A stretch of DNA of 64,000 nucleotides, taken from positions 930,001 to 994,000 of the forward strand of contig BCIO01000001.1 of assembly GCA_001599975.1 (NCBI GenBank), in the 5' to 3' direction. The notes beneath the pieces are model-generated. The model was given only the letters and a program-made list of their open reading frames with translations. It made no database searches and was not told where the DNA came from. Origin of the DNA: Cystobasidiopsis lactophilus. Its lineage: Eukaryota > Basidiomycota > Agaricostilbomycetes > Agaricostilbales > Chionosphaeraceae. This document shows, piece by piece, positions 42,653 to 63,935 of the stretch (position 1 is the stretch's first letter; the number at the start of each line of letters is the position of its first letter). The position numbers and the translations under genes are program-made.

Positions 42653-43986
42653 ATGGACGACATCAAATGGCTGACCGAGCTCTATGCGAGTGGCAGTCTG
42701 ATCTACGGTTTGCTCATGAAGTTCAAGTCCATCGGTGAGCGACCCAAACGGGCCAGCACCTGAAAGCGTTCATCTCATACGTCCAACTCGCCAGGTTTCC
42801 TGTTGACTAGCCAAGGATCGGGCTCGTTGATGATGACGAACCAAGAGGTGGGTTTCACAGCGTGCTGGGGTCTGTGGTCTGACCCACTGAATCGGTCACC
42901 TTAGGAGAATGGACGCAGCGTGGGTCGCTCGTTCTCACTTTCGCCGGGTACAGACCTTAAATTAAGAGACAACAGATTTTTCTGGCCCACGGAGCCTGCT
43001 TGGACATGTTGCGCTGCGTCCTAAAGGCCTTTGGCGACAGCTTCGAGGATAGATGCACTTTGGCCGAAGTGCAATACTTGCTCACTTGCGAAGTGAACGG
43101 CAAAGTGAGCCCACCTTGTACAGTTTCTCTTGCTCGCTGGGACGTATTGAGCCGTCCTTTGCCCTCGCAGATTCGCGAGGTCGACTATGGAACGCAACAG
43201 CCTACCTTGGACTCTGCGCTTTGGACTCTCCGTGCTCCGAATCATACGACCCTCGAGTTTCATGGCTTCAATTGGAAGAAAGCTGCTCGCCTTCGTGCCA
43301 AGCGCCCTTGGCTGCTCGCCGACCCTAACAAGTAGCTTAGGCGCCTTGTCCTTCGCTTTCTACAGAGTTTGACTTGAACTGTTTGCAGACTACCTGCTTT
43401 CCGCGATGTCGTGCCTCGCGAGAAGCTCGAGTCTCTGGCTGCCAATCAGCAGGCTCAACGTGGAGCCTTGGGCGAAATTTTGGCTCATCAGCCTGACGTT
43501 CTGCACAAGATATTCTCCGACCTCGCCCTGTCAGACACGCTCGCCTTCGTTGCCTTCTCTCAAACCTGCAAAGCCGCCCGGGAGGCTTTCACGCGCCACT
43601 TTCAACCGCTCTACCGCCAGATCTGCATGTATCGGTTCTCCTATGCCGCGTTCCGCATGGCCAAAGTCGACCCTTCCCATCCTTTGGTCTTGGCCCCTTC
43701 TTTGAAGAGCCCGCGCGACGGGGACTGGTCGGGCTACTTGGCTGACCTGGTGTCCCCTCAAATCTGGCCTTCGCTCATGGCCAGGCGCCGCACAGTCCTC
43801 ATCTGCCAGAGCATCCAGCAGCAGCGCCAGACCAAACTCGACCAAATACTTCAGCAGGAGGGACCGGGCGCGCAGGACGAGTGGCGAATCGGCTTCCAGC
43901 CATTTTACAGCGCTACCACCTTGGCCATGCAGCTCAGTGCCAGTGAGGCGAATGCCCTATTTGTTTCCCTTCCGCGTTGCAGCTAA
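42653..43986 (+). CDS. F-box-like protein
   Basis: Start placed at 42653 (MDDIKWLTELYASGSLIYGL), the first ATG in the continuous frame after an upstream stop; an extra 5' exon is possible. After introns it reads GFLLTSQGSGSLMMTNQE, then FLAHGACLDMLRCVLKAFGD, IREVDYGTQQPTLDSALWTL and FNWKKAARLRAKRPWLL. The last exon carries an F-box-like segment QPDVLHKIFSDLALSDTLAFVAF and SQTCKAAREAF, followed by QICMYRFSYAAFRMA, ending at 43984-43986. The F-box match is by pattern (Leu/Ile-Pro-x-x-Ile-type spacing and the trailing R/F), so assignment is moderate. Probably an SCF-type adaptor. Confidence 0.5.
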
Positions 43987-44076
43987 TAAGAGAGGCCTCC
44001 ATTCCAAGGTATGACAGCCAGAACTCAAGGTCGAGGCGTTTTTTCGGGGCGACCCTCGTAGGCTCCCTCTTGTTTT

Positions 44077-44583
44077 TCAAAACGACAGGTCGAACGTGTA
44101 CTCCATTGGCGAGGTAGTGAAAGATCCCTTGCCCTTGATGCCTTCCAAGCCTCCAGCTGCGAATAGGAAGGCCTTGGTGTGAGATCCACGAACATGGTTT
44201 GAAATTGAGAACAAAGAAAGCGCTCACTGCCGGTGTTGGGCACGACCTCGAAAGGACCTTGAGCTACATAGGTCTTTCCGTCAAAGGTGCCGGTGCCCGA
44301 GGCGATGAACGAGCCCTCTTTGCCGAGGAAAGTGCCCTTGACCTCGTCGACTGTCCGCGCACTTTGGTTTCTGTGACAAAACACGGCTTGGGGCAACATG
44401 CGCACCTTTGGTGAAGACAGCGTTGCCTCCGTCTGCGGTGTAAACCATGGTGTAGTGGGTTTTTATGGAGATGCCCGATTCGAGCTCGACATCAACGACG
44501 GCGGGCTGGACGCGCGGGGTTTCTTTGCTGGAGCGATCCTCGTCCCATTTCAGAACTTTGAAGGTGTGGGTGGTAGCTGGCAT
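44077..44583 (-). CDS. DUF3224 domain protein
   Basis: Small beta-barrel-type protein of about 130 residues of the DUF3224 family, which is mainly bacterial and of unknown function. Start at 44583 (MPATTHTFKVLKWDEDRSS). Spliced segments read HYTMVYTADGGNAVFTK, then VDEVKGTFLGKEGSFIASG, TGTFDGKTYVAQGPFEVVPN, and after a second intron TGGLEGIKGKGSFTTS and MEYTFDLSF, stop at 44077-44079. The G-x-x-G-S-F and T-G-T-F-D-G motifs and length are those of the family. The two introns (about 44344-44403 and 44161-44226) show that it is a nuclear fungal gene. It diverges from the gene at 44752 with 168 bp between starts. Confidence 0.75.
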
Positions 44584-44751
44584 GGCTGCTTTGCTTCTCG
44601 AGCTTTGGTTGAGCAGGGAAGGGAGTGCGACTGTGGGTGCGAAGTGAGGCGCGTCGACGTGATTTCCGAAACGCAAAATGTGGTGCTCCCTCATCAACTT
44701 GCTACAGCAGAAGGTTGGACGAGTCCACCAGCCACCTTTGCTCTATTTGCC

Positions 44752-46885
44752 ATGGAGGACTGGGGTGGATCCGGAGGCTGGGGCGATGAGCAGGCTCTGC
44801 CCAGTTTCAAGGCGGAAATCAGCTGGTCGCCGACGCTCAAGCCATTGGAAGACGACCAACAACAAGCCGCAGACGATTATGCGTGGCCCTCGCAGACCAC
44901 AGACGTCTCCTTTGGCGGCTTTGCTTCTCCGCCTGTTGATGTGCCGTGGCATGTTGAGCCAGAGCCAGTTGATGAGCCAGAACCAGAGCGGGAAGAGCGG
45001 GAATTGGGATCACCGAGGCAGGACGAGCAGGAGGACGAGGCAGAGGAGGAGCAGGAGCGCAGCCAAAGCCCGTTTCAAGTCGACGCTTTGGAGCTGCAGG
45101 CCATCTCAGAGCCGGACGAGGAAGCGGTAGCAGAGCGGGAGGCCGAGCCGCTGGACGAAGGCGCCTGGGGCTCGACCTACTTGCCACCTGTCCAAGTTCT
45201 CGACGACCAAATGCCGACTTGGCAGCCCAGTGACCATGTCTCAGCTTCATCACCTGTCGTGAACGATGCTGTTGCCGACGAAGAAGAGACGCCGGTTGCT
45301 GGTGCTGATCCCTGGGGGTCGGTCAGATCCAACCTGCCCTCCCAACCCAAGCAGTCTTTCTACATGGTGCGTTTGGTCTGCCGAACATCACTCGTGATTC
45401 TCAGATCCTCAGTTTGAATGCAAATGCACAGAGGCCTGAATTGGTACAAGAGATTGTGGCAGAAGCGCGCAAGCTCACCGAGGCCGCTTTCAAGGTCAAC
45501 CCGGCAGAAGCTTTTGCGCCTCCAAAGGGCCTACACATGAATTTGGACTCCCTATTAGAGCCAGACGGTGAACTGTGAGGCTTCTGATCCTTTTGTTGTT
45601 GTGAAAGGGAAGTATCTGACGGCACGTAAACAGTGGCCAACTTACCAGCAAGCTAAAGCGACAAGTGCCTGAGCGCATCAACTTTGCAGCTAGCGAAGTG
45701 GGCTCCCAGTTTCGCCAAGCGTTGGATTCCACTGGGGCCCGGACCGTCGAGATCCTCAAGGGTTCCGCCACCGGCAGACGCATCGCATCGGGCTCTCGGT
45801 CCATGATGGCTCCCTCGTTCTTCTCACCTGCTGGCACGACCGACCCGGCAGCAGAAATGGCCGCGTTCGACCGATTTTTTGGCCCGACTGCTGTTGCGGA
45901 GCCAGCTCCCTCCACCAAGCCAGCCGCGTCGGCCTTTTTTACGAACCTCTTTAGCGGCAGCAACGCCAAGTCGCCTGCGCCACAGACCGACACGACCAGA
46001 TCCAACGCTTCTAAGGACACGCTGGCACGCTCGACCGACTCAACTTCCGCCTTCCCTGATTTTATGACACCGAGCTCTCCAAACCGAGCATCCATCGATT
46101 CCAACAACTCAGAGTCCCCATCTGGAGTCAAGCGCTTCTTCTCTCGCTTTTCACGCAATCCCAGTGATGCGCACAAGCGGCAGTTCTCGGAGGACGACGA
46201 TTTTCTGGGCTCCAAGGAGATCTCCGTCTTGGATCGCTCAGGCATCCCGGTCGCCCCCAAAGGCTATGCGGACGAACAGGAGGACTTTGGGTTTGGGAAC
46301 TACGCTGAAGGAGGCTTGCTGGACCAAGATTCGCCGGCCAAGGCCATCCGGAGTGCTCCGCCGCCACCCATTAAGTCGACGGACGCCATCGACGACTTCT
46401 TCAACACGCTCACCTCTGCACCCTCCAAGACGGCGTCAAAGTCAGATTTGGACCTGCTGGATCCTTTCTCATCCTTGTCTGTCACCAAAGCGCCGATTGT
46501 GGCCGCCGCACCTCCAGCTGCTGCGCCTCGAACTGTGACTCCAATTTCTCGCGCTTCGACTCCCAATATCCCTCTCCCTCCTTCTCGAAACCCAACACCA
46601 CTCCCGCTGTTGCCACCGCCAGCAGCGTCACACAGCATCTTCCTCCCGCCACCGCCGGCAGCGAGCAAGCCTCTGAAGCCAGTCAATCTTCTAGCCGACG
46701 ACGACGATGACTTTGGCGATTTTGCCTCCTTCTCTGCGCCTGCGCCAGTGTTGGCAAAGGCCTCGTTGCCGCTGCCAGCCTCCAAGCCGTCATTGCCTGC
46801 TCCGCTTCTGGCAAGCGGACCCCCGAAAACCCAAAGCGGCGGCGGACTGTCGAAGACCGACTTGTCGTTCTTCGAAGGGCTGTAA
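44752..46885 (+). CDS. Acidic, Pro/Ser-rich protein with DFGDF motifs (possible trafficking accessory)
   Basis: Start at 44752 (MEDWGGSGGWGDEQALPSF); about 660 codons over three exons (introns near 45366-45431 and 45575-45635). The N-terminal half is strongly acidic. The middle exon, ELVQEIVAEARKLTEAAFKVN, is predicted helical and continues into QVPERINFAASEVGSQFRQAL. The C-terminal half is low-complexity with SPSGVKRFFSRFSRNP, SVLDRSGIPVAPKGYADEQ, DAIDDFFNTLTSAPSK, the acidic DDDDDFGDFASFSAP and the final LSKTDLSFFEGL. DFGDF-type peptides bind gamma-adaptin/GGA ear domains in known accessory proteins, so a trafficking role is a reasonable guess; no domain proves it. Its 3' 770 bp were duplicated (see 50264-51030). 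Confidence 0.65.
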
Positions 46886-47936
46886 CATGTCTTTCGTCGT
46901 TTCCATCGTGGCCCCATTTATGCTGCAATGTGGCTTCATTTTCCCACACTTGGGTGCATTCCGTTTCACGCGCCAGCTCGCTGGCTTCCCGTCCTCCCCT
47001 TTTTTTTGATATATCTTTTGTCCTGTGTGTTCTGTTTGACTTTGGTTGATGGCAGCAGAGAGCACGCCATCTGCGCGTCCGATCCAAGTCCGAGCGGAAG
47101 CGGGCCCTACCGCGTGGATTCCCTAGGTGCTGACTAATTGGCTCTCGCCTGGGAAGGTTCACAACTACAATGCACACCAATTTCGAATGCCGCTTCAGTG
47201 GCTTTCCTGTCGCAACCACCAAGGGTCCACCGGAATTCATTCTTGCTGCCCACACCACATGTAAAAGGTTGGTCGCGAACTCCAAACTGTTGAATGCGCT
47301 CTTCACTAAGTATCAGTATATGCAGAGGGACGGCAGATATCGGCGAAGATGCTAGCTCACAAGGTAGAGACCAGAGTTCGGAGCCAAGGCCAACCCACCC
47401 TGACAGGCGAGATGCGAGCCTTACTTCACAGACGCATCGCATCTGGAAGAACGGGCCTTTACCTCTTCTCGTTCGGTACCTTGGTCCACCGTAAACGCCA
47501 AAATCTACAGGTTTTGGTGGCAAACAGTGTTCTTCAGCAAAGGCAAATTGGTGCGCGTGTTCCTGCAGTAGATGTGGCTCATACGTGCGGCGGGACGCTG
47601 GTTACATTTCTCTTACAGGGTAAATATGGAGGTTGTCGGACAGGCGCAACCACAAGGGGAGAACTGGTGTCTTAGCGCGGAAGAGATCCGGCTCGATCCG
47701 AAATTTTCCTCCGTCGGCCTGCCAGTGCCGGCTTGGCGCTTTTGTTCGTACTCGATGCCGGTCAACAACAGCTGAAGGCAAACGGTAGTACTTCTTGCTG
47801 CTGGATTGGCGACCAGGGAAGGCCGCGGGTCTTGGGTGCCCACCGCCAGTCGAAGTTCGCTTTTGCCGGCTTCGCGCTGTCTTGGATCTTCGCCAGGTCT
47901 TGAGGGACTAGCGCGTTGCCTTCTTTCTGGGCATAA
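46886..47936. other. Intergenic region inside duplication unit A
   Basis: About 1050 bases between the DFGDF gene and copy A of the adenylate-forming-like gene. The first 130 bases match the copy in unit B closely; the promoter part matches more weakly (for example the segment with ggtgctgactaat). No other gene is seen. Confidence 0.5.
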
Positions 47937-49992
47937 ATGGCGTACAAGCCGCCGCAAGTCGAGGCAACTTGGCCTGCAGCCATCAGGCGCTATGCGCAAG
48001 AAGCGCCCGACAGCCCGGCATTTTATGTGCCCAACGACGATGGGGACACCAAAACGTGGCAGACTATTACCTTCGCTCAGTTCCACAAAGATATCACACA
48101 AGCGGCGGCTTTCTGGCAAAGCTTGCTGGACTTGCCGCCGTACAGTGTCGTAGGGCTGTTCTTTCGCGGGGTGGGTTTAGCCTCCTTCATGCTCGACGGC
48201 GCTTTGCTCAGCGGATCCAACACAGACGACCTATCTAGACTGCGTCACACTGGCGGCACTAATGAAGGCCTGCTTCACCGTCCTGCAATTCCCCCTGCGG
48301 GCGAGCTGGAACTCCCAATCTGTGGCGAAGCAGCTTTCTCTTGCTCCCGACACTGCCTCTCTTCTATGTTTGACTGAATACTACGAAATGTGTCGTTCTG
48401 CGACCGACGTGCCGACCTTTCAGCTTCCGACCTTGCTCCGAACGTATCGAGACGCGACTCGCCTCAAGTTCAAACAGCACCTCGACAGCCCGCTCAGGAC
48501 TGTTCTGCTTTACACCCTCTTTGATATACGAGCAAGCTTTATAACCGTTCCGCTGGTGCCGAAGAACTGGGAGTTTATGCGGCAAAGCTTGACGGCGGTC
48601 CAAGGGGTGTGCAGAGTGCCGGAAAGCAGCGTCTTATCGGGGCCCATCAGTTCTGTCGTTGGTATTGCCGCCAGTTTACTCTCGCCTACGTGGTGGGGCA
48701 AGGCTGTTGTGATCCCCCAAACTCCCGCAATCTCTGCAGAAGGTTCGGCATGCTCACTGGCCCCTCGGCCGCCAATCTGAATTGACTTCTCAACAGACTT
48801 GATACACATGAAGCAATGCGTGCCTGTTGGGATGTATGGGCTTCTGGCAACCCATTTTGAAGAGATCGTCCGCAAAGCCGTGGCGTCGTCGTCTCTGAGC
48901 AAGCTCAAAGGCACCTTATTCATGGTTTGTGGGTTTAATTTTGGTTCCCGGATTGGTGGTATATTGCAACAGCTAAATAAGCTGTGTTTTTGGCAGTTTC
49001 TCCGCTCTCCACCCACACGAGATTCATGAAAGCTCGACATTTTGCGGCCTCGCCTGTGGCTGAAGCAATCTCACAGCTGGATGCGACCGTGTTCATGGGT
49101 CGAGGATTCCAATGGTTGACATTGGGGTCTGTCGGGAAAGACTTGGATCTACTTAAACCGTGAGTGGACGCCCATTACCCTTGGCCTGACATCGCTAAAG
49201 ATTGTTGAAAGGCTACATCCACCAAATGCTCAACGTTTCGAACCACTCTTTCCTGGCTCCCCTTTGGTCGAGCTCATTCTTACAGAGCATCACCCGTCGG
49301 TCAAGTATAAGACCCTGACGCCAGACGAGAAAAGGGAAATTCGCACCGGCGATGTGTGAGCCTTTGCCTCATCTAACTTTGCGCGCCAATTTGACAGTAC
49401 GCCAGTTTCACCTGTCATGTGGATCCCGAGACTGGCGCCGCTCGATACATGTGCCGCGCAGCGTTAGGGGCGGAAGACGGCATTTCAATACCTTGCGCTG
49501 ACCCGAGGTTCGTCCACTGTCGCCCCGCCTTGTTCTGCAAAACTTACGAAAGGCATGCTGTCATATCACCTAGGGCAATTTATGGCGTCATACAAGCACA
49601 CTGCGGTGACCTGGTGGCGAACGCTGTGGTGCTGGGCTCGGCAAATCCCAGATTTGGCTTGGTCGTCGAGCCGACAGAGGACTGTAACCTGAACGAGCTG
49701 CGGAAGACTTTGGTGGCGCGATTCGAAACCTACGCAGAGGCCATCGCCCCGGCCGTTTTGGACAGCCCGAAACGAATCGCGGTCTTGCCGCGAGGCAAGT
49801 TCCTACCTCGAAAGGTGGGTTTCACCGACCTCTTGGCTGTTGTGGCTCTACTCAGACTTTGAGGACTTGCAGAACGATGGAACGATCGACCAAGAGCAGA
49901 TCATGAAGACTTTAGACGACAAAGTAAACGCCTACCTGTCGGAACGCAACCAATACGCCTTGAGCGCCAATATGGGCAAGATGAACATTTGA
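47937..49992 (+). CDS. Adenylate-forming (ANL/AMP-binding-like) protein, tandem copy A
   Basis: Start at 47937 (MAYKPPQVEATWPAAIRRYA). The order of segments follows acyl/aryl-adenylating enzymes: TWQTITFAQFHKDITQAAAFW, YSVVGLFFRG, CVTLAALMKACFTVLQFPLR, later REIRTGD (equivalent to the A7 YxTGD), ALGAEDGI (A8-like), AVVLGSANPRFGLVVEP and a lysine in LPRGKFLPRK (A10-like). However, where the glycine-rich P-loop TSGTTGxPK is expected the protein reads LYTLFDIRASFITVPLVPK. Introns include 48743-48796, which copy B lacks. Stop at 49990-49992. All exons join in frame, so it is probably expressed. Enzyme activity is doubtful; substrate unknown. Confidence 0.75.
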
Positions 49993-50263
49993 ATTCTATC
50001 GTGCACGCGTTTGTTATACCTTGTACTCTCCATACCTAGCGCGGGCGGGGATGCTTAGACATTGTCGCGTCCTCACAGCGATGGACGCCCCCTCATAGAA
50101 CCTATCTTGTATCCAGAGCATTAGGTCATTGTATTCAAAAAGCGAAAAAGAAGAACGCTCACGAGCGAGAGAGGAAAGAAACAGGAAGCTTGCCACCAAT
50201 CGTCGACCTTCAAGGTCGAAAGCATGCCAATGCTGGACTCGCTTGCGTACAGGCTCGGCTAGC

Positions 50264-51030
50264 CCCCATCTGGAGTCAAGCGCTTCTTCTTCCGCTTCTC
50301 ACGGAGCCCCAGTGATGCACACAAGCGACAGCTCTCAGAGGACGACGACATTTTGCAAGTTGGGCTCCAAAAGGAGACCTCCGTCTTGGATCGCTCAGGC
50401 ATCCCGGTCGCCCCCAAAGGCTATGCGGACGAGCAGGAGGACTTTGGTTTGGCATTTACACCGAAGGAGGCTTGCTGGACCAAGATTCGCCGGCCAAGGC
50501 CACCCGGAGTGCGTCGCTACCACTCAAGTCGACGGACGCCATCGACGACTTCTTCAACACGCTCACCTCTGCACCCTCCAAGACGACCTCAAAGGCAGAT
50601 TTGGACCTGCTGGACCCGTTCTCGTCTTTGTCTGTCACAAAACCCTCGGTCGCGGCGCACCTCCAACTGCTGCGCCTCGAACTGTGACTCCAATCTCTCG
50701 CTCTCCGACTCCCAACATCCCTCTCCTACTAGAAACCAAGCACCACTTCCCTTGGCGCTACCGCCAGCAGCTTCACACAGCATCTTCCTCCCGCCACCCT
50801 CAGCAGCGAGCAAGCCTCTGAAGCCAGTCAACCTCCTAGCCCATGATGACGATGACTTTGGCGACTTTGCTTCCTTCTCTGCGCCTGCTCTAATGCTAGC
50901 AAAGCTCCCGTTGGCACCTCCAGTCTCGAAGCCGTCCTTGCCTGCTCCGCTCCTGGTGAGCGGGCCCCCGATAACCCAAGGCGGCGTCGGACTCTCGAAG
51001 ACCGATCTGTCGTTATTTGAAGGGCTTTAG
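50264..51030 (+). pseudogene. 5'-truncated duplicate of the DFGDF gene
   Basis: Matches the last 257 or so codons of the gene at 44752-46885, from PSGVKRFF to LSKTDLSLFEGL and a stop at 51028-51030. It has no equivalent of the first two exons or promoter. Recognisable blocks are SVLDRSGIPVAPKGYADEQ, DAIDDFFNTLTSAPSK and DDDDFGDFASFSAP, but they fall in different frames: shifts occur between 50350 and 50370, near 50450, and around 50650-50740. It is therefore most likely a dead fragment carried along by the segmental duplication. The last block stays open and well conserved, so a short product from an internal start cannot be fully excluded. Confidence 0.8.
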
Positions 51031-52127
51031 CATGTCTTTCGTTCCCGTCGTGGCCCCATTTTATGCTGCAATGTGCCTTCATTTTCTCACACTTGGGTGC
51101 ATCCCCCTTCACGCGCCAGCTCGCTGGCTTCCCGTCCTCTCCCCAACCTCCCCAATGATGTCGCTTGAGTCTTGCCTATTTCTTTAGCTTTTGGCTGATA
51201 TGTAGGAGCAGAACGTACTCCACGTGCTGATCCGGCTCGAAGTCCGAGGGGAAGCGACGTCGGTGGCGCGTGAATTCCCCTGGTGCTGACTGAAATAAGT
51301 TTCTCCCTGGGTGATTGATGAACGACCATACAGATACTTCAGAGACTGATTCGTTTAGTCCTTTGTTTGGTCCACCATCGACCAAGAGAGTAGCTTTCTT
51401 GCCAGTTCTTCCCAGGCGCTCTATCTATCGACAAGGTACGTGGTTGGCAGCTCCATTGCAATGTTCTCTGTTTTGATGTAGCTCGCAAGTCCTTACAGGC
51501 GAATTGGATCACACAAGTCTGGTGGCTGAACGCGCTTGGGATCATTTTCAAATGGCCAAGGCCACTTCGGCAAGCTAAAGAGCGAGCCTCGGCCGACACA
51601 CACCACACCGCCTCTTGAAGAATCCTAGCCACTGCTATGCTTCGTCGCAATCTTGGTCAGCCGTAGCCCTTGATCTACAGGTCTCGGTGGCACCAATGGC
51701 CTCCAAAGAGGTAAATGCGAGGGCGCGTTTTAATACGTAGTTTGTAACTCAAATGCGCTTTCAGGCCCCGAATGTACTCCTCTGAGAAAGCAGTACGGCG
51801 CTTGTCTGGACGCGACAGATGAGCAGCCGGGAACTAATGTCTCAGAGCGGAAGTGGAGCCGTCTCCCCTCGGCACGGCGAGATTCCCGGGCCTTCCCTGT
51901 GCGCTTCTTGGGTTTGGCTGAGAACGCCATGCAGGTCATGAGCTGCACGTCCTCTCATCCTGGGGGTTCTTGCTGTTGAGCTTGGCGGTCGAGAGAAGTT
52001 GCAAGTCTCGGTTGTTGACTTGCGGCATCGAGGATTCGAGACTGCGCTTTGCGCCCAGCTTTTCGCATTGCCTTGGATCTGTGCCACTCCTTGAGGGACT
52101 GAAGCCTCGCTTTCATTCTGGCCACGA
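51031..52127. other. Intergenic region inside duplication unit B
   Basis: About 1100 bases corresponding to 46886-47936. The first 120 bases closely match the 3' flank in unit A; the rest is diverged promoter sequence for copy B. Nothing else is recognised. Confidence 0.5.
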
Positions 52128-54181
52128 ATGGTCAGCAAGCCGCCCCAGGTCGAGGCTACTTGGCCTTCAGCTATCAGGCGCTATGCCCAAGATGCGCCCG
52201 ACAGCCCAGCGTTCTACGTGCCCAACAAGGACGACGACGGAGACAGCAAAACATGGCAGACCATCACCTTCGCCCAATTCCATCAAGATGTAACGCAAGC
52301 GGCCGCTTTTTGGCAAAGTTTGCTGGACTTGCCGGCGTACAGTGTCGTAGGACTGTTCTTTCGCGGGGTGGGTCCGTCTCCTCTAGACTTTATGGGCATC
52401 TTGCTTATCAGATCCCATACAGACCACTTATATGGACTGCGTGACGCTGGCGGCACTGATGAAAGCCTGCTTCACCGTCCTCCAATTTCCGCTGCGGGCG
52501 AGCTGGAACACCCAATCTGTGACGAAGCAGCTGTCCCTCGCCCCAAAAACAGCAGCTCTTTTATGCCTCACCGACCACTACGAGATGTGCCGGTCGGCGA
52601 CGGACGTGCCTTGCTTTCAACTGCCAACCCTGCTCAGAACATATCGAGAGGCAACACGCCTAAAGTTCAAGCAGCACCTCGACAACCCGCTCAGAACGGT
52701 TGTGCTATACACTTTGCACGATATCCGGGCGAATTTCGTGACTGTCCCGCTGGTGCCGAAGAACTGGGAGTTCATGCGGCAAAGTTTGCAGGCAGTCCAA
52801 GCGGTGGCCAAGGTGCCGGAGAGCAGCGTCATGTCTGGGCCTATCAGTTCAGCAATAGGGCTGGCAGCGTGAGTCGTTAGCCTCCTTTTGGCCCCAAATT
52901 CTCAGACGGCTCGTAGTTCGCTGTTGCTGCCTACCTGGTGGGGAAAAGCGGTGGTCATTCCTCAAGAACCCGCAATCTCGGCAGAAGATTTGATACACAT
53001 GAAGCACTGCGTTCCTGTGGGGATGTACCCGATCCTAGGGAACCACTTCGAAGAGATTGTTCGCCAAGCCGTGGCATCCTCGTCGTTAGCGGATCTCAAA
53101 GGCACCAACTTCATGATTTGTGCGCTTCTCTTCATCACATACTCTCTCACTGCTGATCAATTGCGAAGTCTCGCCGCTGTCGACTCACACGAGAATCTTG
53201 AAGGAGCGGCATTTTGGAACCTCCTCCCTAGCTGAGGCGATCTCAGAGCTAGATGCGACTGTTTACATGGGTAGAGGGTTTCAATGGTTGTCTCTGGGAT
53301 CTGTGGGGAAAGATCTAGACTTGCTAGAACCGTGAGTGGCTGCCCTCTCCCACTTTGATCTGCGTCTCTAACCATGTTCGAAAGCCTCTATCCACCAAAT
53401 GCTCAGCGCTTCGAACCGCTCTTTCCTGGTTCTCCTCTGCTCGAGCTCGTTCTTACAGAGCACCACCCTTCGGTCAAGCATAAGACGTTGGCGCCAGACG
53501 CAAAAAAGGAGATTCGCACAGGCGATGTGTGAGTCTTGTCCGTTGGCCAGCTCTTCGCAACAAGAGCTGAACAGCACGGGATCAGGTTCACTCGGCATGT
53601 CAACTCTGAGACGGGCACGCCTCAATACATGTGCCGTGTGGCTTTAGGCGCCGAGGACGGCATCAACATCCAGTGCGCTGATCCAAAGTTCGTTGCACTC
53701 TCGCTTTGGTTGTCACGTCTCTCCCAACTCACGACAATCACGTTGCCAGAGCGATTTACGACGCCATAAAGGCACACTGCAAGGACCTGGTGGCGAACGC
53801 CGTGGTGCTCGGCTCGGCGAACCCCAAGTTTGGCCTGGTCGTCGAGCCGGCTGAAGGGTGCAACCTGAACGAGCTGCGCAAGACGTTGGTGGCTCGATTG
53901 AAAACCCACGCAGAGGCCATCGCCCCGGCCGTGCTGGACGGCCCGAAGCGAATCGCAGTCTTGCCGCGAGGGAAGCTGCTCCCTCGAAAGGTTTGGGGCT
54001 CGCCACCGATTGTCGCTGCTGTTGAATCGCTCTTATTGTGGGGGGTCTTTGATGAAAACAGGACGACGGAACGATCGATCAAGACTTGATCATGAAAACT
54101 TTGGACGACAAGGTCAACGCCTACCTGTCGGAGCGCAACCAGTACGCCTTGACCGCCAGCGTGCAGAAGATGAAGATTTAA
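52128..54181 (+). CDS. Adenylate-forming (ANL/AMP-binding-like) protein, tandem copy B
   Basis: Paralog of the gene at 47937-49992. Start at 52128 (MVSKPPQVEATWPSAIRRYA). It has the same order of segments and the same atypical P-loop position (LYTLHDIRANFVTVPLVPK), with KEIRTGD, ALGAEDGI, AVVLGSANPKFGLVVEP and the terminal lysine in LPRGKLLPRK, ending ERNQYALTASVQKMKI and a stop at 54179-54181. It has an intron at 52869-52916 (gtgagt...ctcgtag) in the middle of LAASLLLP that copy A lacks, and it lacks the copy A intron before DLIHMK. All exons join in frame, so both copies look functional at the protein level despite the missing motif. Confidence 0.75.
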
Positions 54182-54444: not shown

Positions 54445-56681
54445 TCAAGACAGCTTGCGAGACTTGACGACCTTCTTGCCGATGCCCGACTTCTCGCCGG
54501 CGTAGGACGTGCGGCCGGCGGAGGCCTGGTCGGCCTTGTAGACGGCGTGCATGGAGCCGACCTTCTTCTTGGCCTTGTCGTAGCGGGCCCGCTTCTTGGC
54601 GCGCGGGTTGCGGTTGAGCTTGTTGCGCTTGGGGGTGAGGCCCTTGTTGGCGAGGATGGCGTAGGAGATGGAGCGCGGGCCCTCGCCTTGCTCGGCTGCC
54701 AGCAGTGCCGTTCTGTAGACCGTGCCTCACTCACAATCAGCCATTCCCGAAGAGAGAAACGAGTCGCTAAAAAAACTGACCTATCCTCCAACCGGGCCGA
54801 ATCGTAGTCCTCCTTCTTGTCCACCTTGCGCTGCTTCTTGGCGCTCTGCACCAAATCGTAGTACCCCGACTCCTCCGCGTTCACCTCGGCCGCACCATTG
54901 AGCACCACCGCCCCTCCTCTCTCCTTAGCCACCTCGGCTTGGGCCGCCTGGGCTTTCGCGATCCTCGCCGCCTCCCGCCTCTGCGCCTCCCTCCTCTGCT
55001 GCTCCTTGGACACGAACGGGATGTCGTCGTCCCCGCCAGCGACGCGCGCCTCGGTCGCCCTGAGCCGCTGCTTTTCTTTAGCCGAGATCTGGGACGTGTG
55101 GAAGCGGAGCGAGTGGCGCTTGCTGGCTTTGTCGGCCGAGTCGGGGCGGGAGAGGGCGGTGGGCTCGAGGAAGTCATCCATCGCTTCCTCGCCTGCTGCT
55201 GGAGCTGGTCGGCGCGCGCGGCGGGGGTCGGAGGAGGGTTCGAGCAGGTCTCGGGTGGCTTTGGCGGCTCGTTTGGCGGCTCGGGAATGGCGGGCCTTCT
55301 TCTGCGATGGCTGCTCCATGGCCAAAGCCACTTCTTCCTCCTCTTCCTCCTCTTCTTCTTCTTCTGACTCCTCATCAGAGTCCGAGTCGAAGTCTTCGCC
55401 AGAGAAAGAATGGCCCTGGTTGCGAGCGAGGTCGAGGAGCTCCTTTTGCTCGACGAGCATCTTGAGCAGGTCCTCCTTGGACATCTTCCCCATCTCCCCC
55501 TCCCCCTCCATCTCCTCGTCTTCTGAATCTTCTTCTTCTGAACTGGAGCCGGCCTGATCGACCTGCATCCCCTGTTCCTCCACCTCCTCATCGGACGAAG
55601 GGGCGTCCAGAGCAATACCGGCTTCTTCCATGTTCGCGATCTGCTCCCTGACCGTGACCAGCCTCTTCAACACTTTGCCGACCAGGTCGCTTTTGGGGTC
55701 GCGGGAGAGGAGGGAGAAGTAAAAGGCCGAGACGGCGAGGTAGGTCTCGACGAGGTCGACCTGCAAGTGGGCGATGGCGGCCTGGGGCGAGTCGGGCTGC
55801 TTGAGGGCTGACAGGCGGGCTTGGAGCTTGGGCAAGAGGGCGGACAGGGTGCCAAAGTCGGACAGGAGGGACAAGAGGTAAGGCTGGGTAGCGAGGAGGT
55901 GGGCGATGGCCAACCCCCGGTTTTCGAACTGGACCTGCTCTTCTGGCACCAATTCTTGAGCTTCTTCTGGGGCTTCGTCCTCGGAGGGGGAGGAAAGCTG
56001 GCCAAAGTCTTCTTCGGCCAACAAGGCCCGCTGAGCAGCTTGGATGGCCAAGGCCTCTTGCAGCTCGTCCACCCCTTCGTCCGAGTCTTCCTCTTGGCCT
56101 TTCTTGCCCTTCTTGCCTTTCTTGGGCTTCTTGGTCGGGCGTGGCTCGGACTCGCGCTTGCCGACGTGGTATTGATTCCCCCATCCCTCCCGCTCTTCTT
56201 CTTCCTCCTCTGAAGACTCTGACTCTACTTCCGGTGCAGCAACTTGTGGAGCTCCCTCGTCGTCGTCGGAAGAGGCTTCAGAGGGGGAATCGACAGGTTG
56301 TTGTTGGGCCGGTCGGTCGAACCTGGAAGTTTTGGAAGGCGGCAATGGCGCGTGCTTGGACTTTTTGGGCCTGGAAGCAACCTTCTTCTTGGGCTCTGGC
56401 GCTTCCTCTTCTGAGTCTGAGCCTGAAGACGGCAAGCGGAGGTTCAGGGGCAAGACTTCGGTGAAATCTTCAAAGTCGTTTTCTGTCCGTTTCGCAATCT
56501 CCACTCAGACCCTTGGGGAGCGACTGAGGTGTGAAGGTAAAGAGAACGCACGGTATCGAGAAGTAGAAGCGGGTTCCAAGCCGACTTTATCAGCCTGCAA
56601 AGCGAACTCTTCCTCGCCCGTCTTGTCCGCCGCGTCCTCCCACGCATCGATCGCTTTCACTCGGGAAGCTCGGCGGTCCAT
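54445..56681 (-). CDS. SAS10: Small-subunit processome protein Sas10/Utp3
   Basis: Nucleolar protein needed for pre-18S rRNA processing. A first exon from 56681 (MDRRASRVKAIDAWEDAAD) splices near 56550 and 56502 to LEIAKRTENDFEDFTEVLP. The centre contains the Sas10/Utp3/C1D domain (ENRGLAIAHLLATQPYLLSLLSDF, DLVETYLAVSAFYFSLLS) flanked by long acidic runs. The C-terminal Sas10 domain is basic: ESGYYDLVQSAKKQRKVDKKEDY, an intron at about 54722-54780, then LTPKRNKLNRNPRAKKRARY, KAKKKVGSMHAVYKA and YAGEKSGIGKKVVKSRKLS, stop at 54445-54447. All domains are present and the length fits. Confidence 0.93.
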
Positions 56682-56882: not shown

Positions 56883-58385
56883 GATGCCGCCTCGAACTGA
56901 TTATTACGACGACGAATGTGCGTCCCCTTGCGTCCCTCATAGCTGCGCGCGGGGCGAGAGCTAAAGATTGATTGAATTGGGGCGTCACAGATTATGGCAG
57001 TTTGGGCCCGCAGCATCCGTCTGGGAGCACCAACGACAAGAAGGACAAGCGGAGAAGGTGAGCTACTACCCATCGTTGAATTGACAGAGCGCGGCATTGA
57101 TTAACGAGCGCGAAACCGAAACAAAGGGATATTGTCGACCGAGTCGAGCGCTTGCGCCGAGAAGGCATCGAGCGCAAGGATCTGTGCGTTGCCTTTTGCC
57201 CTTGGTTACTTGAGTTATGGGTTGCTAATGTCAATGGGGCGAAACAGCATCTTCGCCGAGCTGTACCGCAACATGCACTCCTCCCACCTCTCCCTCTTGA
57301 ACATGCCCCACCCCTCGCACCCGGCCTACCTCTTCCGCCTCTCCGAGCTCTCCATCGAGCGCGACATCCAGCTCTCCAACGTCTCCCAGCACGCCAAGTA
57401 CACCGACGACACCTTACAATCCTTGTACGACCAAGAGCTGGCCCGGATCGAGGACGAGTTCTCCCACTCGCGCAAGATCGTCAAGGAGCGCCTGCTGGAA
57501 GCGTGCGACGAGCGGGCCAAGAAGTTCAAGGAGGAGAAAGAAGGCGTCGAGCTCAACCTCGAGTCCTTCTTCGACTCCCAGCAGCCTAAAGCCCACGCCA
57601 CTCGGCAGCACCGCATCGCCCGCAAGTTCGCCGACCACGTCAACGGCTACGAGTCTTCCGGTGGTGGCAACAATGGCAACGGGAGCGTGTCGGGCAACAA
57701 CGGCGGAGCGGGCACGCCTTCCAATTCCAACTCGGGCACCACCCCCGCCGGCGGCGCCCTCTACCCCAAACCCTCCATTCCCCTCACCAACACCAACACC
57801 CACTCGTCCGGCACCCCTGTACCACCCGAGCAAGCGTCGGCACTGACCACCGGCGCGCCCGGCGAGCTCTTCCCCTTCTCCCTCCTCCCCTCCTCCCCCT
57901 TGCTCGCCTCCTTCCCGCTCGGCAACACAGCTGCCGTAGGCAACGGCGGCACGTCCTGGCTCAACCCGGCCGCCTTACTCTCCGCACTAGCGGCCATGCC
58001 GCCCGTCGCCTCTTCCTCCTCCACCTCTGCCCCTCTAGGACCTGGAGGCTTCAAGCGCGTGGGCAAGCGAGCTCTCAAAGACCCGCTAGCCACCAAGGAC
58101 GCTTTTGGCCAAGTCATCATGGCCGTCCATGGCCTCCCCACCTCTCTAGCCCAGCATTCAGTACATCCAGGTCGGTACGACTTCCTCGGCAAGTCCCTCC
58201 AAGCGCTCAAGCCGCTCATGGGCGACGAGGTCAATGAGGACATGGAGGGCCTGAGGGGTGGAGGGGGAAAGAAGAGGCGGACCAACGCCAACTACCTCGC
58301 TGCCCAGAACGGCACCGGCGAGTTCGTCCAGGGCGGAGTGGGCATGAGGCGGGGAGGGACCAAGAAGAGCAACGCCGAGTGGTAG
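56883..58385 (+). CDS. Sds3-like histone deacetylase complex subunit
   Basis: Start at 56883 (MPPRTDYYDDE), then by splicing YGSLGPQHPSGSTNDKKDKRR, DIVDRVERLRREGIERKD and, after an intron at 57182-57247, the Sds3-like domain: IFAELYRNMHSSHLSLL, HPAYLFRLSELSIERDIQ, TLQSLYDQELARIEDEFSHSRKIVKERLLEACDERAKKF, a helical region that in Sds3/Dep1/Breast-cancer-suppressor proteins bridges Sin3-Rpd3L. A Gly/Asn/Ser/Pro-rich linker follows, and then a conserved-looking C-terminus with GGFKRVGKRALKDPLA and LGKSLQALKPLMGDEV, ending at 58383-58385. The nuclear role is inferred from family similarity. Confidence 0.8.
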
Positions 58386-62278: not shown

Positions 62279-63935
62279 CTAGCGACCGCCCATGAGCTTT
62301 TGGCGCCATTGCTCGACGACTTCTGGCTTGGTCTTGAAGACGACGAGGCCGGCGAGAGCGATGCCGTAGCTGTAGGATAGCGATCTCTTTGAGCAAAGTG
62401 AAACGATTGCTCGGGCAACGACGGCAACCTACCCGACGAGTTGCGTAAAGGTGACGGTGGAGCCGAGGAGGATGACAGAGCCGCAGACCAACAGAATGTC
62501 CTTGACGACGCTGTGAGTGGTCCACAGAGGCTAATCAGCACTGGAAGCCTGATCAGAGGTGACCACAGCCCGACTCACCCGGACAAGGTGAGGACCAAGC
62601 TCGAAGCGACGCCGATGAGGAAGACGACGGAGCAGTTCAAGGCGAACGCGCACGAGGCGTTGGAGATGAGGACGAAGACGCCGAGGCGCTCCATGACGAG
62701 GTCGACGGGGGCCCAGCCTTCGTAGTAAGGGATGAGGCAGGCGTTCAGGGCGGCGCAGACGGGCGCGAAGTAGTAAAGCGACACTAAAGGGTCCATCTTG
62801 AGGCCGTGGAGCAGCTTTTGGATGGCGACCAGGCGGGCGGCTTCGAAGAGGATGCCGAACGCCTGGAAGGTGAAGCCGACCCAGCTGAAGTTGATCTCGC
62901 CCCAGGAGGCCAAGGCGACGCCGGCGGAGATGCAGAGCACGATGACCATCGTCCGCTTCGTCGGCGTTTCGAGGCCGAAGAGGACCGACATGAGCAGGAC
63001 GGCGACGGACACGAAAGCCTTGAGCCTGTGCACGCAACTCTGAAGATCAGTAGGGATCTACTATAGGGGAGTGGATGTGACGCACATTTGGATGAAGCTG
63101 ACGGAGAGGGTGAGGTAGGCCATGTTGGAGCAGATCAACGAGGCGGAGAAGAGGGCGCCGATGGGCAGGATGGACTTGCTCCAAAGCGAAAAGGTCATCT
63201 GTGCAGCCCCAAAAACCCATATGAGAACCAAGAAATATTAGATCTGAAGGGAAGGGTTCAAGACGCACCGGCACGTTTTGTAGGCCATCGAGGAGATGCG
63301 TTGTCCGGGCCAGCACGCGGGTCCCAATGGTGGCGAAGAAGAGGTGGAAGGTGGTCAAGAAGATGGGGCTGCAAGGCGAGCCAAAGCAGATGAGACCCAG
63401 GTCGGTCAAATTGGTTGCCGGCGAACTCACAAAGGGAATTCCAAGTCCGTCTACAGCTCGAAGTCAGTTCCCGGGGACGTGCTGAAACGGACAGGACAAG
63501 AACGCACCAAGATGTACTTGTTGTAGATGATGACGCTGGAGGATACTGTGCGTTGTGGGAAAAATATCAGACGAGGGTGAACTGCCTGTCAAAGCGGCGG
63601 ATCGCCCCAAACGCACGAGCAATCCACACGCAAATGACGGCGGCCGGGTTGAACTTCTTCTTCTCGTCTGCTACTGCTGTTGACTGTGCAAGGTCAACGC
63701 AAACAGTCAGCGCGCAATCAAAGGGGGCGACAAATTGCGTGGGCGGCGCACCTTCGCAGAGACGGGCAGCACCGTGCCCCGGTTGGTGTCGTTCAGCAGT
63801 CGGTCCGTGGCGCCTTCGCTCTCTGTCATCGCCAATGCGTGAGCTTGGGCAGTTCGCCAGAGGGGCAGCGAGCGCGGAGGGAGACGCACTGTCATCCATG
63901 TCAAAGACGACCTGGTTTTGCTCCTTGGATGCCAT
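62279..63935 (-). CDS. Triose-phosphate/nucleotide-sugar transporter family (TPT) protein
   Basis: Multi-pass Golgi/ER-type transporter of the drug/metabolite superfamily. Start at 63935 (MASKEQNQVVFDMDD); the soluble N-terminus is spread over small exons (MTESEGATDRLLNDTNRG, AVADEKKKFNPAAVICVW). Membrane core: SSVIIYNKYIL, FPIFLTTFHLFFATIGTRVL, ILPIGALFSASLICSNMAYLTLSVSFIQM with the family lysine in MLKAFVSVAVLLMS, CISAGVALASWGEINFSWVG, FEAARLVAIQKLLH, FALNCSVVFLIG and GYGIALAGLVVFKTKPE, ending KLMGGR at 62279-62281. The AYLTLSVSFIQMLKA signature is typical of the TPT group. Substrate cannot be assigned. Confidence 0.87.

Follow-up and report, generated by a model that had tools for sequence, protein, structure and literature searches.

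Two collinear tandem genes, here called A and B, carry opposite states at two intron positions: A has an intron (iA) that B lacks, and B has an intron (iB) that A lacks, the two sites being separated by 71 coding bases. One of the two junctions is clean and the other is scrambled. This reciprocal presence and absence had been proposed in an earlier note on the DNA, and the coordinates, ends and lengths given there for both introns proved exact. So did the remark that all other introns compared are shared, as the remaining six agree between A and B in both position and phase. The window, that is, the whole stretch of DNA analyzed, is 64 kb long, and within it the introns of A and B were placed by comparing both copies and were then spliced in silico, which gave the following features.

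47937 to 49992, forward strand: copy A, eight exons, 550 amino acids, a putative diverged AMP-binding (adenylate-forming) protein (spliced model and alignment to B)
52128 to 54181, forward strand: copy B, eight exons, 552 amino acids, paralogue of A (spliced model and alignment to A)
48171 to 48225 in A and 52368 to 52422 in B, forward strand: shared intron i1 (A/B comparison, as for the other shared introns below)
48929 to 48996 in A and 53120 to 53168 in B, forward strand: shared intron i3
49160 to 49211 in A and 53332 to 53384 in B, forward strand: shared intron i4
49356 to 49405 in A and 53529 to 53585 in B, forward strand: shared intron i5
49508 to 49573 in A and 53688 to 53749 in B, forward strand: shared intron i6
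49815 to 49872 in A and 53991 to 54061 in B, forward strand: shared intron i7
48743 to 48796, forward strand: iA, in A only, 54 nt, GTTCGG...CAACAG, phase 1, between GAAG and AC TTG
Between 52987 and 52988, forward strand: empty site of iA in B, which reads GAA GAT TTG
52869 to 52916, forward strand: iB, in B only, 48 nt, GTGAGT...CGTAG, phase 2, between GCA GC and T TCG
Between 48671 and 48672, forward strand: empty site in A that corresponds to iB, assuming a precise event; A reads GCC GCC AGT

An old pair of genes and its surroundings

The two genes are 84% identical, and their spliced proteins share 460 of 550 aligned residues, with a single gap of two residues. Both proteins score just above the Pfam cut-off of 20.8 bits for AMP-binding_C_3 (21.7 bits for A, 23.6 for B) and below the cut-off of 29.9 bits for AMP-binding (21.2 and 18 bits); the one PDB match is weak (E 0.83). 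The tripeptide TGD is retained in both, at residues 394 and 396. The patterns that we tried for the glycine/serine-rich ATP-binding loop, a motif of adenylate-forming enzymes, matched neither protein. Read in this way, the product may be a diverged, perhaps inactive adenylate-forming protein. Both copies may be non-catalytic yet conserved.

The pair is old, and both copies still look constrained. By the NG86 method dN is 0.10 and dS is 0.97 (1.62 by the maximum-likelihood option), and dN/dS is about 0.10 for the whole coding sequence, with 0.09 upstream of iB and about 0.12 downstream of iA. The differences fall 76, 39 and 219 on the first, second and third codon positions, and 110 of 239 fourfold-degenerate sites differ (K2P distance of 0.73), while the shared introns are only 54 to 65% identical. 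Given an NG86 dS this high, the case is less striking than the words “tandem duplicates” suggest, and some intron turnover is to be expected in principle.

The surroundings have a history of their own. A gene upstream of A, here called X, is predicted at 42653-46885, and its 3' part (46113-47135) recurs between A and B as what appears to be a truncated, frame-shifted copy, X' (50261-51291). Across 763 nt the K2P distance between X and X' is 0.14, well below the fourfold-site distance between A and B, so X' was either copied later than the A/B pair or converted by X. A forced alignment of the spacers upstream of A (47136-47936) and B (51292-52127) gives about 51% identity, and the spacers are not recognizably related, short stretches aside, such as 63 nt at 75% identity directly before the start codons. 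Three further predicted genes lie downstream.

54445 to 56681, reverse strand: predicted gene matching the Sas10 C-terminal family
56884 to 58385, forward strand: predicted gene matching the Sds3-like family
62279 to 63935, reverse strand: predicted gene matching the triose-phosphate transporter family

The case for splicing of iA and iB

Both iA and iB have GT-AG ends, and their removal restores the conserved reading frame in both copies. Their lengths are multiples of 3, and each holds an in-frame TGA (48778-48780 in iA, 52870-52872 in iB), so that either copy would be truncated unless its insert is spliced. We compared them with a set of 173 introns, 14 placed by the A/B comparison and 159 predicted elsewhere in the 64-kb window, introns of predicted genes scoring under 15 having been dropped before the count; the gene finder's version of i5 in A, which had other ends (49354-49397), was left out of the set. 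The lengths of both inserts fall within the range of this set, with 37 of the 173 introns no longer than iA and 9 no longer than iB. A branch-like CTNA motif occurs in 144 of the 173 (60 after shuffling) and is present in both: iA has it at -44, -20 and -8, and iB has a single one, CTCAG, at -16. Speaking against iA, its donor, GTTCGG, is the sole instance in the set, though GTTCGT occurs there 11 times. Predicted folding gives a z of -0.08 for iA and of -1.92 for iB, whose folding is equalled by 8 of 200 shuffled sequences.

Could one of the inserts be no intron at all, that is, could A or B be decaying, or could the assembly be in error at that spot? Most of the details that lend themselves to this reading concern iB. 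A small gene finder, trained without the A/B locus on the 159 other predicted introns and run at four penalty settings, recovered iA exactly in two settings and iB exactly in only one; it used the donor of iB in all four and chose a different acceptor in three. The 3' splice site of iB is also weak, at the 11th percentile, but so are those of five shared introns (9th to 14th). Moreover, dN/dS remains low beyond each of the sites, and the GT-AG ends sit, in both copies, where splicing restores the frame, so we regard the non-intron reading as highly improbable. Judged from these sequence features, iA and iB appear to be ordinary spliceosomal introns, which would mark the host as a eukaryote; it is presumably a fungus.

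One junction clean, the other scrambled

The earlier note had each intron sitting exactly where the other copy reads through. Base for base, this is true of iA; the iB junction, by contrast, is ambiguous. At the iA site, 2 of the 24 flanking bases differ between A and B, against 2 to 7 of 24 at the six shared introns, and the empty site in B matches the spliced exons nearly throughout: the junction is clean. At the iB site, 14 of 24 flanking bases differ, which is the maximum of 543 windows; six windows (overlapping or other) reach 12 of 24. Two short features of A carry the contrast.

48673 to 48684, forward strand: codons 228-231 of A, AGT TTA CTC TCG, with 9 of 12 bases differing from B
48672 to 48674, forward strand: CAG in A, candidate counterpart of the last three bases of iB (TAG, 52914-52916) under a shifted gap, if the event was imprecise

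Codons 228-231 are the unique maximum among the 547 four-codon windows of the coding sequence, and of the 27 conserved serines only the one at codon 228 (AGT in A, TCG in B) switches between AGY and TCN codons. In draws matched for residue class, from pools that include the iB site itself, at least 9 differences arose in codons 228-231 in 64 of 100,000 trials. These junction tests were selected after the iB spot had been seen, and the six-fold degenerate codons found there can change freely.

How the gap at iB is placed bears directly on how the event occurred. A shifted gap, of 45 nt plus 3 nt, yields 8 matches and 5 mismatches, versus 3 and 10 for the precise gap, and it gains 12.3 nats, while the additional in-frame indel costs about 6.3; the 45-nt plus 3-nt placement, chosen after the fact, is thus favored by about 6 nats. 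Because A and B are equal in length here, an imprecise event requires a second 3-base change, and it also requires that the serine was retained by coincidence. The better fit of the CAG in A to the final TAG of iB is suggestive of an imprecise event at this site.

Loss, gain, and what the pair may tell us

The difference calls for two or more separate events, because 71 coding bases lie between the sites and the resemblance of iA to iB does not exceed that of shuffled sequences. This part of the earlier note's inference, of two or more gains or losses after duplication, stands; “after duplication” is likely rather than proven, because a duplication from two differing alleles gives the same picture. 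We posit, with about an even chance of being right, that an ancestor with both introns lost one of them in each copy, iA from B precisely and iB from A probably imprecisely. In this model, in which we infer both the direction of loss and the two molecular routes, the ancestral gene would have had eight introns, iA and iB included. The loss of iA from B would have been precise to the base, as expected if a cDNA copied from the spliced mRNA had recombined with the gene. The loss of iB from A was probably imprecise, as from a genomic deletion or break repair, and would have left the last three bases of iB in the reading frame of A, where they now read CAG, with a compensating 3-base change adjoining them.

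We take one loss per copy as the best guess because losses exceeded gains in two surveys of fungi. The Cryptococcus survey (Sharpton et al. 2008, PMC2395259) gives 31 unambiguous losses, 0 unambiguous gains and 18 unresolved cases, and the fission yeast study (PMC3629103) gives 677 putative losses versus 62 putative gains. In the latter, four losses in Schizosaccharomyces are described as imprecise: 3 or 6 bases stayed behind or were deleted with the intron, and the frame was kept, much like the 45-nt plus 3-nt reading of iB. There, however, outgroups fix the direction, and A and B, for their part, are equal in length at the site and need the second 3-base change. The Cryptococcus losses resemble the present case in that single internal introns are absent from one homologue with the flanking exons aligned; they were found between orthologues and at a very low rate, whereas here 2 of 8 positions differ at an NG86 dS of 0.97. 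Against the guess of two losses, at the highest Cryptococcus loss rate (5.2e-3 times dS), which we read as per intron and which, as the rate of another fungus, may not apply to this lineage, 0.03 to 0.04 losses would be expected among eight introns. The observed excess of about 50 to 66 times does no more than hint at faster turnover. A search of viral, bacterial/archaeal and plasmid collections found no relative, which says little given that none of these collections is fungal.

Alternatively, the copies may have acquired one or both introns once the gene had been duplicated, whether through break repair, through intron transposition or through a small duplication; in our estimation this falls somewhat short of an even chance. 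The iA site reads AAG|A, a proto-splice-like context, and of the 91 intron pairs scored for similarity, those of iB with i1 and with i5 of A tie for the top score (25). According to a review, introns are gained faster in paralogues (PMC3443670). Against this, no source sequence emerges: the best intron match is equalled by shuffled sets in 14 of 60 cases for iB and 35 of 60 for iA, the introns resemble neighboring exons no better than expected by chance (ranks 105, 123, 190 and 191 of 346), and the same is true of the empty sites of the other copy (181 and 256 of 500 shuffles). Gain by break repair finds little in the intron ends, as the longest word common to both ends is 4 nt in iA and in iB, a length also found in 4 of the 12 shared introns. 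In a gain of such age these traces, longer end repeats included, may have been erased.

The ambiguity at iB also admits a more particular gain, which we consider unlikely. That is, a 45-nt insert could have entered B before an exonic CAG and recruited the AG of that CAG as its 3' splice site, the protein length being restored by an expansion of 3 bases close by (CTG TTG CTG). A literature search on gains of this type returned only two papers.

Two further readings are weaker than the others. A single intron that relocated by 71 coding bases is scarcely credible: iA and iB do flank the same 71-nt exon piece and are similar in length, but their similarity is reached by 438 of 2,000 shuffles and ranks 26th of 91 intron pairs, a likeness test that is itself weak because the shared introns have diverged so far. 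It is just as hard to credit that iA and iB are copies of a mobile intron family. Such introners, which the earlier note had raised as something to search for, are reported from some fungi (PMC4457414; PMC9860276), but neither intron has a significant match among the 172 other introns of the set, the best matches elsewhere in the 64-kb window are only 12 and 11 nt long, and the idea thus finds no support within the window, whether against the 173-intron set or against shuffles.

How does the pair compare with what is known? Like other cases of intron differences in duplicated genes, A and B have a common frame, with most introns shared and few positions differing; they are distinctive in that the differences are reciprocal, lie within 71 coding bases and concern adjacent tandem copies. 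A literature search on reciprocal introns returned, among the matches listed, no title on intron turnover. The reciprocal introns of A and B thus seem to be of a known kind, a product of ordinary turnover, to which the case adds two events seemingly differing in precision. Tandem copies in opposite intron states allow the coming and going of introns to be compared, on a small scale, within one genome, and a clean and a scrambled junction only 71 coding bases apart suggest that the gene was changed by two different routes.
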